Assembly: GCF_002923755.1 (NCBI RefSeq)
Contig: NZ_PGFZ01000002.1
Location: 73,704-137,703, forward strand
Reading direction: 5' to 3'
Source: Methylovulum psychrotolerans
Lineage (GTDB): Bacteria; Pseudomonadota; Gammaproteobacteria; Methylococcales; Methylomonadaceae
DNA: 64,000 nucleotides
This document shows positions 27,165 to 34,971 of this stretch, one piece after another. The first letter of the stretch is position 1. Each line of letters starts with the position of its first letter. The translations under genes and the position numbers were made by a program. The notes below the pieces were generated by a model. It saw only the letters and a list, made by a program, of their open reading frames with translations, did no database searches and was not told the DNA's origin.

Positions 27165-27821
27165 CTAAAAAGGAATTTTAAGGATCATTGTTCTTTCATG
27201 GATTTCAATATGACCTTTTTGGCTTAAATCTTTCAGCACTTTATTAATCATTTCGCGTGATGCGCCGACCATACTGGCAAGCTCTTGCTGGGTGGGGCGG
27301 CGTTGGATGAAAAAATTGCCGTGTTCATCCCTGACGGCCAATTTATACAAAACTTGCACTGTGCGTTCATGGACATTCGATAATGCCAGATGTTTGACTT
27401 TTTGGGTGAGCTGGCGGACTTTTTCCGATAAGTCGGCTAAGAGGTTTAGCGTCACATCCGGGTGTTCGGTCAGCCAGAGGGTAAAGTCGACTTTAGAGAT
27501 GACCCCACAGACCGTTTTTTCTAAGGTGATGACCGACGCAGAGCGCGGCTCATTTGCCAGCAGAGCCAGCTCGCCAAAATATGACCCGGTTTCTTGGGTC
27601 ACTAAAGTCACTTCCCGCCCGCCGTTGTCACTGGTAAAAATCTTTACCTTACCCGAAATGATGATATACAGCGAGTCTGTTTCATCTTTTTCGGTAATGA
27701 TGATGGTTTGCTTAGGGAATGTGCAACACTTCGCCTTTAACGCCAGTGACTCAATGGCTTCATTAGGTAACAAGGAGAGAAACGCGACTTTTTTTAAGCC
27801 TAATAAAGCATCTTGCTGCAT
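27165..27821 (-). CDS. Crp/Fnr family transcription regulator
   Basis: The 218-residue product has an N-terminal cyclic-nucleotide-binding domain with the phosphate-binding cassette FGELALLANEPRSASV. The Glu, Arg and Ser that contact cAMP in E. coli CRP are present. A C-terminal winged helix follows (PTQQELASMVGASREMINKVLKDL). No cysteine cluster of the Fnr type is seen, so cAMP or another cyclic nucleotide is the likely signal. A CHASE2 nucleotide cyclase gene lies 5 kb away, a possible source; that is inference. Confidence 0.88.
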   Translation of the reverse strand: MQQDALLGLKKVAFLSLLPNEAIESLALKAKCCTFPKQTIIITEKDETDSLYIIISGKVKIFTSDNGGREVTLVTQETGSYFGELALLANEPRSASVITLEKTVCGVISKVDFTLWLTEHPDVTLNLLADLSEKVRQLTQKVKHLALSNVHERTVQVLYKLAVRDEHGNFFIQRRPTQQELASMVGASREMINKVLKDLSQKGHIEIHERTMILKIPF

Positions 27822-28015: not shown

Positions 28016-28108
28016 CGGAGTGCAATGGTCTTTAGATATTGTCCGACGGGTCAAGCTAAGGGCGGGAGGTTAAAGCCCTCGTACAAAGGCTAAAGGCCTT
28101 TGCACTCC
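28016..28108. repeat. Dispersed palindromes, GTGCAATGG family (composite)
   Basis: The left edge is CGGAGTGCAATGG at 28016-28028. The right part is GTACAAAGGC, loop TAAA, GGCCTTTGCAC, then TCC (28081-28108). The middle (GGGCGGGAGGTTAAAGCCC) differs from the 25825 copy. The rest of the 331-base interval between 27822 and 28152 holds no gene that I can support. Confidence 0.78.
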
Positions 28109-28152: not shown

Positions 28153-28476
28153 TTACCAGCAGTAGATGTTGCCGTTTATTAAAACGCAGGTTAATAGTTT
28201 TACGTTGGCGGATGTGCTGCCAAGTTTGGCCGCTGCGGCGTTGTCTGATAAGGCGATTGCCGATGCGGGTAAGGCGTTGGTGGTGAAGGTGCTGATGCTG
28301 GGGATTGGGTTTTGCGGGTCGGCTAGAGATTCGGTGTCGTTATCGGCTTGGGAGGGGGAGACTAACAGGGTCGGTTCGCCTTTGCTGTTGAAGGTAAGGA
28401 CGTAGGCGATGTCTGTGCTTTGCGCATCCTTAGCCAGTTTGGCAACGGTGCTTTTGCTTAAGACGCGGTGGTTCAT
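28153..28476 (-). CDS. Small protein with C-terminal YCW motif (copy 2)
   Basis: This product of about 107 residues starts at the ATG at 28476 (MNHRVLSKSTVAKLAKDAQ); a longer frame opens at 28512. No known family is recognised. The C-terminus TCVLINGNIYCW ends at the stop and aligns with TCIVLNGVMYCW in the gene at 28941, while the rest is only loosely similar. The middle is rich in Ser, Ala and Pro. There is no signal peptide from this start. The conserved tail with two Cys, preceded by a variable body, recalls peptide precursors, but no maturation enzyme is seen nearby. A short frame (28430-28600) overlaps its 5' end in another phase. Confidence 0.5.
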   Translation of the reverse strand: MNHRVLSKSTVAKLAKDAQSTDIAYVLTFNSKGEPTLLVSPSQADNDTESLADPQNPIPSISTFTTNALPASAIALSDNAAAAKLGSTSANVKLLTCVLINGNIYCW

Positions 28477-28600
28477 AGTTGGGGGTTGCAAAAATCCCTG
28501 CGGTGCTGGCATTATACGCGCCTAATAGGGAGAAGGTTGTGCCGATGAAGGTTTTTTTTACGGCTGTGCTTACATGACGGTATTCAGGGTAGGTGGTCAT
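28430..28600 (-). CDS. Short ORF overlapping the copy-2 YCW gene
   Basis: This 56-codon frame begins MTTYPEYRHVSTAVKKTF. It has a good ribosome-binding site (GGAG, 8 bases before the ATG) and a hydrophobic stretch (IGTTFSLLGAYNASTAGIF). It overlaps the start of the YCW copy-2 frame in a different phase. A single +1 shift at a run of five C in the overlap would join GIFATP to MNHRVLSK, giving one protein with a hydrophobic head. It could be a translated upstream frame, the 5' part of a frameshifted gene, or a sequencing indel. Confidence 0.4.
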   Translation of the reverse strand: MTTYPEYRHVSTAVKKTFIGTTFSLLGAYNASTAGIFATPNYEPPRLKQKHRCQTG

Positions 28601-28940
28601 GTTGCTTTCTCCAAATCTACGGGCTGGTCGGGTGGTTAAGGTTTGTCGGAGTTCGCTAAGTGTCGCTTTCTCGTTTACGTTGCGTCCCGTTTCTCTGCGG
28701 TGAGAGACGGCATTCCCACGCGTGCGGTGCGTGGGAGCGTTTATAGCAGGGCAGTAGCATTAAAATCAAATCAAATTTGATAGAAGCGAATCCACGGAGA
28801 TAAAATATGGGAATTGAGATTGCACTGTCTTTAGCTCTGAATTCTCGTGTCGAAATAATGCGCTACGATACAGTAGATTAAGATTGTGAAATCCCGTATT
28901 CCGTTTTGCACCTATGGGTTACTATCCAAGTCTTTGGTTT
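28601..28940. other. Intergenic stretch between the two YCW genes
   Basis: A palindromic unit around 28700-28735 (CATTCCCACGCGTGCGGTGCGTGGGAGCG) resembles dispersed intergenic repeats of proteobacteria. A 24-codon plus-strand frame at 28807-28881 (MGIEIALSLALNSRV) has a fair ribosome-binding site (CGGAG), but I cannot support it further. Confidence 0.4.
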
Positions 28941-29231
28941 TTACCAACAGTACATAACGCCATTTAGTACAATACATGTTTTTTGAGTTGCACCGGTTAT
29001 GCTTTGTTCAGATGGCGGGGCATATGAGAAAATCGTCAGTTGTTGTGGGTTTATCCAGTCCTTTTCTGGAATGTAGCTATGTTCTTCAGGTTTGTTTTCT
29101 TCATTTGCGTAGAGAAAATAAACATTTTCTTCGTCGGCTGAAGCGATGACGGTTTGCGGAACATTACCGTCCATTTGGCCTGCTAAGGCTTTTTTTGATT
29201 CTTCTGATAATTTTTCAACTGTAATTGTCAT
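28941..29231 (-). CDS. Small protein with C-terminal YCW motif (copy 1)
   Basis: The 96-residue acidic product begins MTITVEKLSEESKKALAGQM and ends TCIVLNGVMYCW at the stop codon. The start is supported by a strong ribosome-binding site (TAAGGAACC) three bases before the ATG. It follows the FecR-TPR-barrel gene by 24 bases on the same strand, so it is very probably co-transcribed. The N-terminal segment and the exact C-terminal motif are shared in outline with the gene at 28153. No family is recognised. The two cysteines of the tail could form a disulfide or be modified. Confidence 0.6.
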   Translation of the reverse strand: MTITVEKLSEESKKALAGQMDGNVPQTVIASADEENVYFLYANEENKPEEHSYIPEKDWINPQQLTIFSYAPPSEQSITGATQKTCIVLNGVMYCW

Positions 29232-29255: not shown

Positions 29256-32200
29256 TTAAAAGTTAAAAGTAAAGCGGGCCATAAAGGTTTGCGCTGGGGT
29301 AATATCAGACGTGCGTATTTCATTGGTTTGATACGCGCGGTCTCTGAATTTGAAGCGGTTATCCAGCAGGTTATCGGCCTCTAAACTGAATATGCCGTAT
29401 TGTTTGGGCAGGCGATAACCGATAGCGGCATCAACCAGATAAAAATCGGTGCTAAAGCTTGGGTCGCCACCTGGTAGTGTGTCCACCCGTTGGTTGATAT
29501 AAGTGCCGCGTAATTCGGCAAAGACACCAACTTTATGAAAAAAGCGTAAGCTAGTCGGCAGGTAGGCTGTGGCAACAGCTTTTGGGGAATTGATGCCTGT
29601 CGCATGAAAGTCCTCATAACGGAACCCCGAATTCATCAGCCAGTGTTCATGGATGATCCAGTTTACATAAAAACGGTACAGATTTTCGGTGCGTGGATCG
29701 GATATAAAAGAATGGTTGCTGATAATAGGGTTATTTAATTCACGAGCATAAATTTCTACACCTGTATACCAATTTTTGGCTGGATGATAATCCATGCCTA
29801 TAGCATATTGTGTGGACTTTGTACCGTTGTAATCGTCAAAAAATTGATTAAACCCGGCAATTTGCATGGGTTGCAATTGTTGGTTGACAATAATTGGCGA
29901 TTTTAATGTGTCGAAAACCGCTAATCTGAATAATAGTTCTTTATTAAATTGCCAAAGCAAGCCGAATTTAGGGTTTGCCCGTTCAATGGCTAAGCTACTT
30001 GCTTGGCTATCATTGTAGCTGTCATAGCTTAAGCCCCCTGTTGCGGTCAGATTGTCCAGTAATTTGATATTGGAATAGGCATAACCGAAATTTTGGGTAT
30101 CGTTAGTGTTGGTTAGTTGGCAACCTAAGGCCATGCAAATAAAAGGGTTGTTTGAATAAAATTGACTTTGAATATCATAGGTATATCGACCGCCACCTGC
30201 TGTTAAGTTAAATCGTTCATATTCGAGTAAATAAGCCGACTCTAACTGATAACCGCTATTTTTTGCTGAACTGCTCAGATAAGAAAAGCTATTCAAAAAC
30301 TCATTCCGATTAGCATAAATAAACGAAGTCAACCATTTAGAATGCTGGGTAGGCGCAAAGGTTGCCCCTAGCCGATAAGTATCCTGTCCCAATTTCCGCC
30401 GATAATCGGCGTTAAAGTCCGACATATCGCCTTTTTGTTGCAAATCGCCATGCTCGGTATCCCTGCGCCGATATTCCGCTTGGACATTAAATTTAGGCGA
30501 GAACTCATACTGGGCAAAGGCGTTATACAGATCATGTTTAATGTCATTATTTGCCCGATAGCCGTCATTCTCATAATGCAACTGGCCAAAGCTGTAAGAG
30601 AGTTTATTGGCGATCCCCGACAGCACGGCTTCGTTGCCAATCAGGTTGTTGGAGCCGTAGCTGGTGGTGTTGGTGATGCGGTAGTTATCGCGCTCAAAGA
30701 CTTTATTGTATTCGTTAAAACCCACTTCCGCAGGGCCGACGCTTTTGGGGATGTTAAGGTCGGTGTAGGCCAAGCGCGGTTGCACGGGATTAAGGTTGAC
30801 CGATTGCAGGAGTTGCGATTGCAATAAGGCACTGGCGCGGGTGACTTCTTGGCGCGGTTGGTTGGCGCTACTGTCCGATAGCAGGCGTTGCGCCGAATAG
30901 TTGCCGGGGTCTAGGGCCAGGGATTTTATGGCTTGGCGGTTGGCGACATCGTTAAAGCCTAAGTCATTGTAAATGCGGCCTAAGCCTGTACCGCGCACGG
31001 CGGCATCTTGGTCCAGCAAGAAACGTGAGCGGTAGACGGCGCGGTTGTCATTTAAGTCCATGGCTTGCTGCATATCGTGCAGGGCGGCGACGGGGCGGTT
31101 AGTCGATTGCTTTAAGATGGCATCGTAAAACCAGGGGGTCGGGTCTTTGCTGTCGTTGGCTTTGGCCAGTTTAAATTCGGTTTCGGCGTAGTCGGGGTTG
31201 CGCAGTTCAAAATGGGCTTTGCCCAGATAGCTGCGGATAACGGCGTTGTTGGGGTCGAGGTTGGCGGCGGTTTCCAGCTTTTGCTTGCCTGACTCCAGTT
31301 TGCCGGTACGAATGTCGGTCAGTGCCGAACCTAACCAAGCTAATGGATCGGAAGAGTCTATGCTAATGGCTTGCTGAAAGGCTTCTTGGGCAAATTGGGT
31401 GTTGACTTGCGCCAGATAAGCAAAACCTAACACGGTTTGGGTGCGGGCCAGAGCCGGGTCGGCGTTACGCGCTTGTTGGGCGGCTGCTAGGCCTTGGTCG
31501 CGTTCGCCTAAGGACAGTTGCAGTTCAGAAATTCTGGCCAAGACCAGGGCGCTGGTGGGTTCCTGTTGCAAAGCGGCTTGGGCGGCTTGCAGGGCTTCCG
31601 GCAGTTTAAATAAGGCTTGGTAAGCGTAAGATAGGGCAAGTAGGGCGGCACTGGATTTGACGTTGTTGCCCACGGCTTTTTGCGCCAGTGCCAAGGCTTC
31701 ATCTTGGCGGTTTTTGCTGACCGCGATAATGGCTTGTAAGGCGAAAGCTTCGCTGTTTTTGGGGTCACGTTCTAAGATCTGGCCGATGAGCTGTTGGGCT
31801 TCGTCGGCACGCCCGACGCTTAATAACAAAGACGCTTTTGTCGCTAAAAAGCCGTTGTCCTGTTGGTTGCTGGGTATGGCGGTATCAAAATTTTCCAGTA
31901 ATTGGCTTTTGACGGTTTGTTGCTGGGACGGCGACGTGTTGGGGGCGAGAAATTTTTTATAATCCAGCAGCGGCGGATAGTATAAAGCCCATTGCACGGC
32001 ATCTTCGGATTTGATGAGCAGGGCTTGCAAATAGGGCTTTTTGCCTTGAGGAGTAACACCAATAAAGCCGGGTTTGATTTGGGCGCTGCCCATTGCGTTA
32101 TAGGCACGGACTTGCCCATCAAAGACGGTAACGGCAGTTTGTCCGCTGTTAACGCTGACCAAAAATTCGGTGCCTTCATGCACGGCGTTGACAAAGGGGG

Positions 32201-32576
32201 TTTGCACTTCTAGGTTTTGCGGTTGGCGGCTACGGAAGAAGGCGGTGCCTTCGCGCAGGTAAGCTAGCCATTTTGGAGTATCGTCGAAGGGTGGCGGAAA
32301 AATCAGCGTAGTGGCTTGCTCTAGGGTGATGACCGACTCGTTGCGCATTTGTAAGGTGGCGCGGCTGTGTTTGCCGGTGCGGATTTTATCGCCCGGACAA
32401 AGTTCATTGTGCGCTTCGATGTTTAACCAGGTATTGCTGTCGGGCTGTTGGCTCTCGACTTTACCTTGTGCGGAGACGATTTGTGCGACCGACTGCCCAC
32501 AATTGAGGGCCGCTTGTGTACTTAAGGGTACAAGCAGCGCAATGACAATGTAAGAATAGCGGACTTTCTGGCGCAT
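29256..32576 (-). CDS. FecR-TPR-outer-membrane beta-barrel fusion protein
   Basis: This 1106-residue protein starts at the ATG at 32576, which opens a signal peptide (YIVIALLVPLSTQA); the longer frame from 32681 adds an unlikely head. Residues about 30-165 form a FecR-like domain (GDKIRTGKHSRATLQMRNES, then TPFVNAVHEGTEFLVSV). About 220-560 are tetratricopeptide repeats (NSEAFALQAIIAVSKNRQDE). From about 620 to the end is a beta-barrel-like region of amphipathic strands, ending in Phe (FMARFTFNF) like outer-membrane proteins. It probably spans the outer membrane with its FecR and TPR parts in the periplasm. It lies between the cyclase and YCW genes; a sensing or secretion role is inference. 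Confidence 0.75.
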   Translation of the reverse strand: MRQKVRYSYIVIALLVPLSTQAALNCGQSVAQIVSAQGKVESQQPDSNTWLNIEAHNELCPGDKIRTGKHSRATLQMRNESVITLEQATTLIFPPPFDDTPKWLAYLREGTAFFRSRQPQNLEVQTPFVNAVHEGTEFLVSVNSGQTAVTVFDGQVRAYNAMGSAQIKPGFIGVTPQGKKPYLQALLIKSEDAVQWALYYPPLLDYKKFLAPNTSPSQQQTVKSQLLENFDTAIPSNQQDNGFLATKASLLLSVGRADEAQQLIGQILERDPKNSEAFALQAIIAVSKNRQDEALALAQKAVGNNVKSSAALLALSYAYQALFKLPEALQAAQAALQQEPTSALVLARISELQLSLGERDQGLAAAQQARNADPALARTQTVLGFAYLAQVNTQFAQEAFQQAISIDSSDPLAWLGSALTDIRTGKLESGKQKLETAANLDPNNAVIRSYLGKAHFELRNPDYAETEFKLAKANDSKDPTPWFYDAILKQSTNRPVAALHDMQQAMDLNDNRAVYRSRFLLDQDAAVRGTGLGRIYNDLGFNDVANRQAIKSLALDPGNYSAQRLLSDSSANQPRQEVTRASALLQSQLLQSVNLNPVQPRLAYTDLNIPKSVGPAEVGFNEYNKVFERDNYRITNTTSYGSNNLIGNEAVLSGIANKLSYSFGQLHYENDGYRANNDIKHDLYNAFAQYEFSPKFNVQAEYRRRDTEHGDLQQKGDMSDFNADYRRKLGQDTYRLGATFAPTQHSKWLTSFIYANRNEFLNSFSYLSSSAKNSGYQLESAYLLEYERFNLTAGGGRYTYDIQSQFYSNNPFICMALGCQLTNTNDTQNFGYAYSNIKLLDNLTATGGLSYDSYNDSQASSLAIERANPKFGLLWQFNKELLFRLAVFDTLKSPIIVNQQLQPMQIAGFNQFFDDYNGTKSTQYAIGMDYHPAKNWYTGVEIYARELNNPIISNHSFISDPRTENLYRFYVNWIIHEHWLMNSGFRYEDFHATGINSPKAVATAYLPTSLRFFHKVGVFAELRGTYINQRVDTLPGGDPSFSTDFYLVDAAIGYRLPKQYGIFSLEADNLLDNRFKFRDRAYQTNEIRTSDITPAQTFMARFTFNF

Positions 32577-32688: not shown

Positions 32689-34971
32689 CTAAAAGCTCAG
32701 TGTGGTGACATTGATAATCATGGGTAATTGATTATCGACGGATTTTTCTGGCAATTTTGTGGTGTTCTCCAAGTAGCGCAGGAAGAAGCCGCTAGGGCCA
32801 TCATTAGGAAATTGTTCGGTTATTTTGCTAAAAGCTTGCCGCGCGGGCAGCCATTGGTGGTCTTGGAAGAGGGCTAGGGCTTTGGCAAAGGCAGCCGTTA
32901 AGGCGCGGTCGCGGTCGCTCGCTTGTTGCTGGGTCGCCATCAGTTCAAAAATATGTACGGGTTTGGCTTTGCCTTTTAAGATAAATAAGCCGACATCACG
33001 CAGGAAAAAATCGTCTAAGTCGGCAATGACCGCGGCATTAACCAAAATATGAGTGCCTAGTTGTTTGTTAAGGGCTTCAATTCTTGAAGCGGTATTGACC
33101 GGATCGCCTATTGCCCGATAGATCAGCCGGCCTGTAAAGCCGGTATGGCCAATGCTGATTTCGCCGCAGGCCAAACCAAAGCGGGTGATTAAGGGATAGG
33201 GCTGATCTTGGTTAAACGCTGCCAAGTTCTGTTTAATGGTCAGTGCCGCTTGGCAGGCGTTACTACGCGCTTGCTGATTATGGTCGGCGTGGGCCCATAC
33301 GGCATACATGCCATCGCCTGCCAGATCGGTGACAAACCCGCCGTGTTGGTTGACCAGCGGAAAGACGGTCTGGTAATAGGTGTTCATTAGGTCAATTAAG
33401 GCCTTGGGCTTTAAGGCTTCGGACAATTGGGTGTAGTCGCAGACATCGGTAGCCAGACAGACACCTTGAGTCAGTTTACCGCTGGTGTCCATGATCATGG
33501 TATCGGGCTGGTGCGGAATGTTATCGACCACTTCTTTGGGCAGTAGTTTATGCAATGCCAACTGCATTTTGGTTTTGGTACGGTTGGTGTGGCGAAAGTG
33601 GATAACCGAGGCGGCGGTCAGCACTAAGGGCATTTGTAGGGCGAGGGGAATAGTTAACGGTAGCCAGATAGCGGCGGTGACAAATTCGTAGTAGGCGAAA
33701 TAAGTGTATGCTGCTCCTGAGGCCAAAATGACGGTGATGGCGAGGCGGTAAGAGCGTATCACGCAGTAAGCCGATAGCAGCATACCCCAGCCTAGCAACA
33801 GGAGAAACTGATAGGCGCTTCTTAAGGGCTTTAGCCAAGTATTATCAATGAGATTGCCTAAGGCGGTGGCAGCAAGGTCAATCGGGCTGGTGGTTTGGTT
33901 ATGGGCGTGTGAATAGACGGTGTAGTAGCCTTGGGCTTTTTCGGGTTCGATGCTTTCGGAGAAGCCGACCAAGACGATTCTGTCGCGTAAGGTATCGGGC
34001 GGTAGGCCGTTGAGGGCCTGATAAAACGGAATGGTTGTAATTTTGCCGACATTGCCGTAGTGGTTGTAATAGAGGCTTTTATGGTCGGCCAAATTTAGCC
34101 AAGCGGCTAAGAGGCGTTGCTGTTGGGCAGGTACGGCGGCTTGGTTAAGCAGGTGTTGCCAGTGGTCGGGGTTGGTCGCCTGTAAGGCCAACGCATCGCG
34201 GAGTTTTTCTAGGTCTTCGGATAGAGTGTGCTGTTTGGCCAGTTCGGCAAAGCTGGGCGGCAACTGCGTGGCTAGAGGAGATTGGGCGATAGCCAGTAAG
34301 GTCAGAAGGTTGGGATAGGCTTTTTTAAGGACATAACATTGAAAAATAAAGTCGGGGAAGGTTCTAAGGCCGGCGCTTTCTTTGTCAACCCAAAATTGTT
34401 TGACGGTGGAAGCCCCTTTAGGTAAGGGGAAGGGTGCGGCACTGAGCGCGGCGTTGTTAATAAGCTCAATGGATTCCATCAGGGTTTCTGTGCTGGGAGC
34501 AGCGCCACCGCTTGATGGGTTAAGCGTCTTATATTTGATGTAGCTGCCTAAAATAACATTGTTGTCGCGGGCAATGGCAGTCGCCAGTTGTTGGTCGGTT
34601 ATTGCATTAATGGGTTTGCCAAAAAAGATATTGAGGGCGATCAACGTCGGATGCTGTTGGTTGATCTGGTCGATCAATTGCGCATAATATTCGCGCGGCC
34701 AGTCTGTTGGATCGTCAGCGAGTTTGAAAAAATCCGCTGAGGTTTGGTCGACACTGATGATAACAATATCTTGCGGCGGTGCGGTTTCGCCGCGCAGAGC
34801 AAACAGCCAAGCCAAGCCACCTTCTTCTTCAAGGGTTTCACCCAGCGGCGTTAAGCACAAAACCGCACCTACTAGGCCTATCGCTACGGAGAGCAGGCAC
34901 AGTTTGGAGGATTTGACAAAAACGCGGTTAAGGGGGGAGCTACCGCTTAAAATCGGCCAGGTAGAGATCAT
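32689..34971 (-). CDS. CHASE2-domain adenylate/guanylate cyclase
   Basis: This inner-membrane sensor cyclase has 760 residues. One N-terminal membrane helix (CLLSVAIGLVGAVLCL) is followed by a periplasmic CHASE2 domain (about 45-370, with IVIISVDQTSADFF and LRDRIVLVGFSE). Three membrane helices come next (about 385-460), and then a class III cyclase domain: CLATDVCDYTQLSEAL with the metal Asp, TDLAGDGMYAVW, and GDPVNTASRIEALN. Substrate specificity (ATP or GTP) is not settled by inspection. It heads a minus-strand run with the FecR-TPR-barrel and YCW genes. Confidence 0.88.
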   Translation of the reverse strand: MISTWPILSGSSPLNRVFVKSSKLCLLSVAIGLVGAVLCLTPLGETLEEEGGLAWLFALRGETAPPQDIVIISVDQTSADFFKLADDPTDWPREYYAQLIDQINQQHPTLIALNIFFGKPINAITDQQLATAIARDNNVILGSYIKYKTLNPSSGGAAPSTETLMESIELINNAALSAAPFPLPKGASTVKQFWVDKESAGLRTFPDFIFQCYVLKKAYPNLLTLLAIAQSPLATQLPPSFAELAKQHTLSEDLEKLRDALALQATNPDHWQHLLNQAAVPAQQQRLLAAWLNLADHKSLYYNHYGNVGKITTIPFYQALNGLPPDTLRDRIVLVGFSESIEPEKAQGYYTVYSHAHNQTTSPIDLAATALGNLIDNTWLKPLRSAYQFLLLLGWGMLLSAYCVIRSYRLAITVILASGAAYTYFAYYEFVTAAIWLPLTIPLALQMPLVLTAASVIHFRHTNRTKTKMQLALHKLLPKEVVDNIPHQPDTMIMDTSGKLTQGVCLATDVCDYTQLSEALKPKALIDLMNTYYQTVFPLVNQHGGFVTDLAGDGMYAVWAHADHNQQARSNACQAALTIKQNLAAFNQDQPYPLITRFGLACGEISIGHTGFTGRLIYRAIGDPVNTASRIEALNKQLGTHILVNAAVIADLDDFFLRDVGLFILKGKAKPVHIFELMATQQQASDRDRALTAAFAKALALFQDHQWLPARQAFSKITEQFPNDGPSGFFLRYLENTTKLPEKSVDNQLPMIINVTTLSF

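Follow-up and report, generated by a model that had tools for sequence, protein, structure and literature searches.

Gene organization of the locus

The window, by which we mean the whole 64,000-nucleotide stretch of DNA that was analysed, carries a gene cluster that lies entirely on the minus strand, with a cyclase gene 5' of the gene for a large outer-membrane protein (hereafter the barrel gene) and a Crp-family regulator gene 3' of the second of two small genes, copies A and B:

32689..34971, minus strand, CHASE2-domain adenylate/guanylate cyclase (Pfam CHASE2 5e-28, Guanylate_cyc 2e-13)
29256..32576, minus strand, outer-membrane protein with a signal peptide (by inspection), FecR domain, TPR repeats and TonB-receptor-type beta-barrel (Pfam FecR, TPR, PF00593)
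28941..29231, minus strand, copy A, a 96-aa small protein with tail TCIVLNGVMYCW (open reading frame; two further genomes have orthologues 3' of this barrel gene; SD-like AAGGA upstream)
28941..28979, minus strand, tail of copy A including the stop codon, CxxxNGxxxCW (sequence, tail pattern)
28153..28476, minus strand, copy B, a 107-aa paralogue with tail TCVLINGNIYCW (open reading frame; profile match; no SD-like run before the ATG)
28153..28191, minus strand, tail of copy B including the stop codon (sequence, tail pattern)
27165..27821, minus strand, Crp-family regulator with a cNMP-binding domain (Pfam cNMP_binding 3e-22, HTH_Crp_2)

A first-pass annotation of this DNA had reported two open reading frames with a shared ending flush with the stop codon, and both are confirmed: copies A and B each terminate in TC[IV]xx[IL]NGxxYCW. 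A degenerate DNA pattern for this tail matches the window twice, at A and at B, and not once in 100 shuffles, and in the Methylovulum psychrotolerans genome the tail pattern occurs in two places, both of them members of the small-protein family. At codon positions 1, 2 and 3 the two copies differ by 58, 35 and 65 nucleotides, respectively (4, 1 and 6 in the tail), so that the third position is the most different, which fits selection on the protein.

Copy A starts 24 nt past the stop codon of the barrel gene. The sequence upstream of copy B holds nothing SD-like, and this copy may be weakly expressed or in decay. An N-terminal export signal is absent from the window copies and their nearest relatives, with neither a lipobox nor a hydrophobic N-terminus under a simple rule, and the open frame of copy A, at 99 codons, leaves no room for one. 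Proteins of the window group begin with a helix-like leader, LSxxATxEILG, and have a Cys-rich variable end.

Several other elements lie close to copy B. An imperfect 33-nt inverted repeat (79%) occupies window positions 28017-28108, between the Crp gene and copy B; a palindromic GC-rich element, CCCACGC...GCGTGGG, REP-like by eye, lies in the gap between A and B at about 28709-28738; and copy B has a short open reading frame (28430-28600, minus strand) across its start and a TATAAT-like sequence about 35 nt before its ATG. No Rfam family was matched, by the inverted repeat or otherwise, Crp-like sites were not enriched in the window and none lay near the operon, and promoter prediction gave nothing useful.

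The barrel protein is a 1141-aa open reading frame, within the size of about 1100-1200 aa of NsrA-type receptors. The frame reaches 32681, and an alignment with L075 favours the ATG at 32576 as the probable start. The PF00593 match covers the last 479 aa, and a Pfam scan of the full protein at E 1 returned no plug family. A search of solved structures returned nothing beyond a weak match to a TonB receptor (4aiq, E 0.0019), and the AlphaFold model, at pLDDT 31, is unreliable.

The tail and its close relatives

A profile search of 311 genomes of the order recovered the small-protein family in three, the window genome and two more, all of one genus. A scan of about 85,000 species with the tail pattern, which demands Y or F before CW and hence excludes the LICW form of one relative, gave 61 matches, among them one genuine open reading frame, that of Methylovulum sp. 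STA_76. The other matches outside Methylovulum were rejected as chance occurrences, since they were out of frame, read-through or closed very short frames. Each of the two relatives sits immediately 3' of this barrel gene in its own genome. The tail of all four close members reads C-x3-NG-x3-C-W, with N-G midway between the two cysteines, and this exact tail is confined to one genus (four proteins in three genomes).

The similarity among A, B and the two relatives extends from the tail into a common body. Hidden Markov models built from other species score the full proteins at 28.4 bits for A and 29.2 for B, against at most 10.5 and 6.8 in 1000 shuffles; with the last 16 residues removed, the scores are 18.5 and 13.9, still above every shuffle (9.4 and 8.6). 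By these profile comparisons the bodies of A and B are diverged homologues and not unrelated. The earlier description of the bodies as dissimilar is correct only in part, and that of a variable body with a conserved Cys-containing tail is borne out.

Two cysteines placed opposite one another on either side of a two-residue NG turn have the geometry of a disulfide-closed beta-hairpin. Such a C-terminal hairpin fits the CxxxNGxxxC spacing best, which favours the disulfide-closed C-terminus among the readings first offered for the tail, the bond itself being a prediction. AlphaFold draws strands at residues 86-89 and 92-95 of copy A, but at pLDDT 42 (below 50) this model is unreliable.

Small proteins downstream of barrel genes in Gammaproteobacteria

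That one copy adjoins the FecR-TPR-barrel gene, as noted in the first-pass annotation, proved to be the key clue, and it holds well beyond this genome. The barrel gene is present in 83 of the 311 genomes of the order and in 38 of 303 sampled throughout the class, and is rare outside the class. At all 95 barrel loci a small open reading frame (median 116 aa) lies just 3' on the same strand, usually within 100 nt. These frames were picked by a mechanical nearest-start rule, some picks probably being wrong, and since the rule also found a small frame after many control genes, its bare presence is weak evidence. The signal is the cysteine-bracketed end: a C-x(4-16)-C motif within 8 residues of the stop codon occurs in 57 of the 95 frames, compared with 7 of 92 that this rule picked behind other genes of those stretches (Fisher 5e-15) and 7 of 129 ordinary proteins (Fisher 1e-19), although both values overstate certainty, as related (Methylomonas-like) loci are not independent.

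The cysteine-bracketed ends are often centred on NG, GG or DG, and the tails are very diverse, as in CYVYINGVIYCVPC, CKVGGKWVTCKGPC, CNTFYLNGDQYEIC, CRTYVNRITGREYEKCW, CLLFNLGGSLVNICW and GSCYELIFDGLNYYLIEVPC. About 40% of the downstream frames fail the strict cysteine rule, some of them ending GSHY...PLPH with no cysteine. Five loci from other gammaproteobacterial families (L195, L198, L204, L213 and L214) have a tail devoid of the Cys pair, GSHYxxIxxxGxxYxIPLPH, which ends in Pro-His or similar, and at L144, L162, L169, L170 and L179 the proteins are versions of about 61-70 aa that contain hardly anything besides one hydrophobic segment and a Cys-rich end, for example CGVSCPKGEKLAPGSFSCIPC. 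Closely linked pairs of barrel genes mostly have one small gene for each barrel. In L153, L162 and L178 two barrel genes lie close together, with different small proteins downstream where these could be picked (the pick for the second barrel of L162 is ambiguous), and these pairs are possible receptor-partner duplications.

Profile comparisons link these tail families across Gammaproteobacteria as homologues. The window group (A3) aligns with a lipoprotein group from other families (A4) over 66 columns that include both hairpin regions (hhalign 91%, E 9e-7), and a controlled re-run scored 34, whereas 100 column-shuffled profiles reached no more than 14.6. Members of A4 run ...IVDxxGxxIxP...GS[HC]YxxIxxxGxxYxIPLPH, and this group in turn matches the Methylomonas-type lipoproteins (A8) through the N-terminal half, lipobox included (score 35 against 16 in shuffles). 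The window group and A8 show no direct similarity in profile comparison, and the link between them runs via A4 only. Under the simple rule, 57 of the 95 small proteins carry a lipobox, a hydrophobic N-terminus or both, as is the case for most families other than the window group. None of the small-protein groups is covered by a Pfam or NCBIfam model; the only match that was not weak is LPAM_1, the general lipoprotein attachment site, and all others fall below curated cut-offs. The first-pass annotation had counted restriction of the tail to the two window genes, or its inclusion in a larger known domain, as results that would speak against it. The former nearly holds for the exact motif and fails for the general feature; no domain of the latter kind was found.

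The small proteins diverge far faster than the barrels; in one example, barrels that are 63-66% identical have partners that can barely be aligned. Barrel and small-protein similarities are correlated (Mantel r 0.65), but no residual correlation exists for barrel pairs below 45% identity, so that the correlation is driven by close pairs and indicates co-inheritance, without being proof of co-evolution.

A probable module for cyclic-nucleotide signalling

Among the 58 full-length barrel loci, a CHASE2 cyclase is encoded on the same strand in 40, a Crp regulator in 24 and either of the two in 42, the remaining 16 having neither on that strand within the stretch examined. Twelve loci are ordered Crp-barrel-small-cyclase, an arrangement in which the small gene sits inside the gene run. 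The module consists of a CHASE2 cyclase, a FecR-TPR-TonB-type barrel protein, a hairpin protein and a Crp regulator. The pairing itself is a genomic result, and we consider it quite probable that copies A and B are a cognate component of the module. For the full statement, in which they serve an NsrA-like receptor in control of cAMP synthesis as its cognate ligand or gate, we judge the chances to be about even.

In the mechanism that we propose, the small protein would act in the periplasm or at the outer membrane, where the window copies are presumed to reside. Its C-terminus would form a hairpin of two strands joined by an NG turn, with a disulfide linking the two cysteines, and the plugless barrel would take up or display this hairpin, in what we suppose to be direct contact, as a ligand or gate built into the system. 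The TPR/FecR part would pass occupancy to the CHASE2 sensor, which may then alter cAMP (or cGMP) synthesis and, through it, Crp-dependent transcription, the presumed direction of control. The specific role of ligand or gate acting via the hairpin is a tentative assignment that we hold at somewhat less than even.

The main rivals of the ligand or gate reading are an assembly factor and a secreted self-signal. An accessory factor in barrel assembly or folding, comparable to LptE or BamE and itself without a part in signalling, would account for the one-to-one pairing with an outer-membrane barrel and for the lipobox or hydrophobic N-terminus in 57 of the 95 proteins. Assembly factors are usually conserved, however, whereas these proteins are hypervariable, with a lipobox missing from the window group, and we regard such a role as unlikely. 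Slightly less likely still is a released hairpin that the barrel of neighbouring cells would detect, so that cAMP would be fed through a private peptide channel. The much faster divergence of the small proteins than of the barrels, with which they are nevertheless co-inherited, agrees with such a signal, as does the perception of a protein signal by the comparable receptor NsrA (PMC7529298), but no protease, exporter or cleavage motif was identified beside the genes, and the many relatives that are lipoproteins would stay membrane-bound.

The tail had also been likened to a sorting tail and to a peptide precursor. As a sorting tail it would be expected on other proteins, yet it was not found on unrelated ones and travels with one operon position; a peptide precursor finds no support in the cluster, where no maturation, peptidase or transporter gene was seen, although the small protein could conceivably be a processed ligand. 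The more specific case of a RiPP precursor, a ribosomally made and post-translationally modified peptide with a C-terminal core, draws on the missing signal peptide, the helix-like leader and the Cys-rich variable end of the window group. We consider it very improbable, given that neither Pfam nor NCBIfam yielded a leader or precursor family, that the window cluster has Crp, barrel and cyclase genes as neighbours but no maturase, and that the homologues from elsewhere are lipoproteins sharing the two-hairpin core. Least credible of all are chance or drifting non-essential frames downstream of the barrel: the restricted exact motif and the SD-less copy B are compatible with them, but the enrichment against two controls and the profile tests contradict them, and so does the bias towards the third codon position.

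Hardly any ligand is known for the receptors that act on CHASE2 cyclases, and the small partner co-encoded by nearly every gammaproteobacterial relative examined is a testable candidate for a receptor ligand or gate. Such a partner would add an overlooked small-protein family to cyclic-nucleotide signalling, methanotrophs included, and the module is hosted by many water- and soil-dwelling bacteria. A bolder extension, which we hold to be rather doubtful, would see in these proteins a hitherto undescribed, hypervariable family of hairpin ligands that the cells encode themselves, one to suit each outer-membrane receptor, and that form private cAMP signalling channels across Gammaproteobacteria.

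Comparison with known systems

Parts of the module recur in systems with other outputs or partners. A FecR domain joined to a TonB-receptor-type barrel recalls the FecIRA-type TonB-dependent transducers; unlike these, the window protein has no plug match, combines FecR, barrel and TPRs in one polypeptide, and is linked to a cyclase, not to an ECF sigma factor. In the Burkholderia BiofilmReg operon, a LysM-FecR protein is likewise paired with a CHASE2 sensor, but this is a histidine kinase, no barrel is present and a DUF4136 protein takes the place of the hairpin protein (PMC5192318). In Campylobacterota, a FecR outer-membrane protein clusters with CHASE2 adenylate cyclases, a phosphodiesterase and a TPR protein, so that a CHASE2 cyclase is again paired with FecR and TPR, though FecR and TPR are in separate proteins, a phosphodiesterase is present and the passage describing the cluster reports no small hairpin protein (PMC9239204). 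On a Neorhizobium plasmid, the gene for a 1217-aa FecR-TPR protein, whose FecR-TPR part is 23.5% identical to the window barrel protein, overlaps a CHASE2-cyclase gene, and a small gene would not fit between the two. In the open-access papers searched we found no description of the small hairpin protein, although an earlier account may exist elsewhere.

Receptor, cyclase and regulator together are reminiscent of the NsrA / CyaK, CyaD1/D2 / Clr system of Sinorhizobium meliloti, which likewise unites a large outer-membrane barrel, CHASE2 cyclases and a CRP-family regulator, a likeness of architecture and published description. There, the barrel protein NsrA in the outer membrane detects a protein signal and depends on the CHASE2 cyclase CyaK, a ribosomal protein being the candidate for one signal (PMC7529298); the barrel portion of NsrA spans about aa 600-1200, and cAMP acts via the CRP-family Clr (PMC7529298; PMC13001267). 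A small hairpin protein, as in the window module, is not described for this system. From these precedents in S. meliloti, Campylobacterota and Burkholderia, together with the Neorhizobium locus, we read the window cluster, by analogy and from its genes, as an NsrA-like trans-envelope cyclic-nucleotide pathway (cAMP or cGMP), and if the small proteins are indeed hairpin ligands, they would be the built-in counterpart of the protein signal that NsrA senses.
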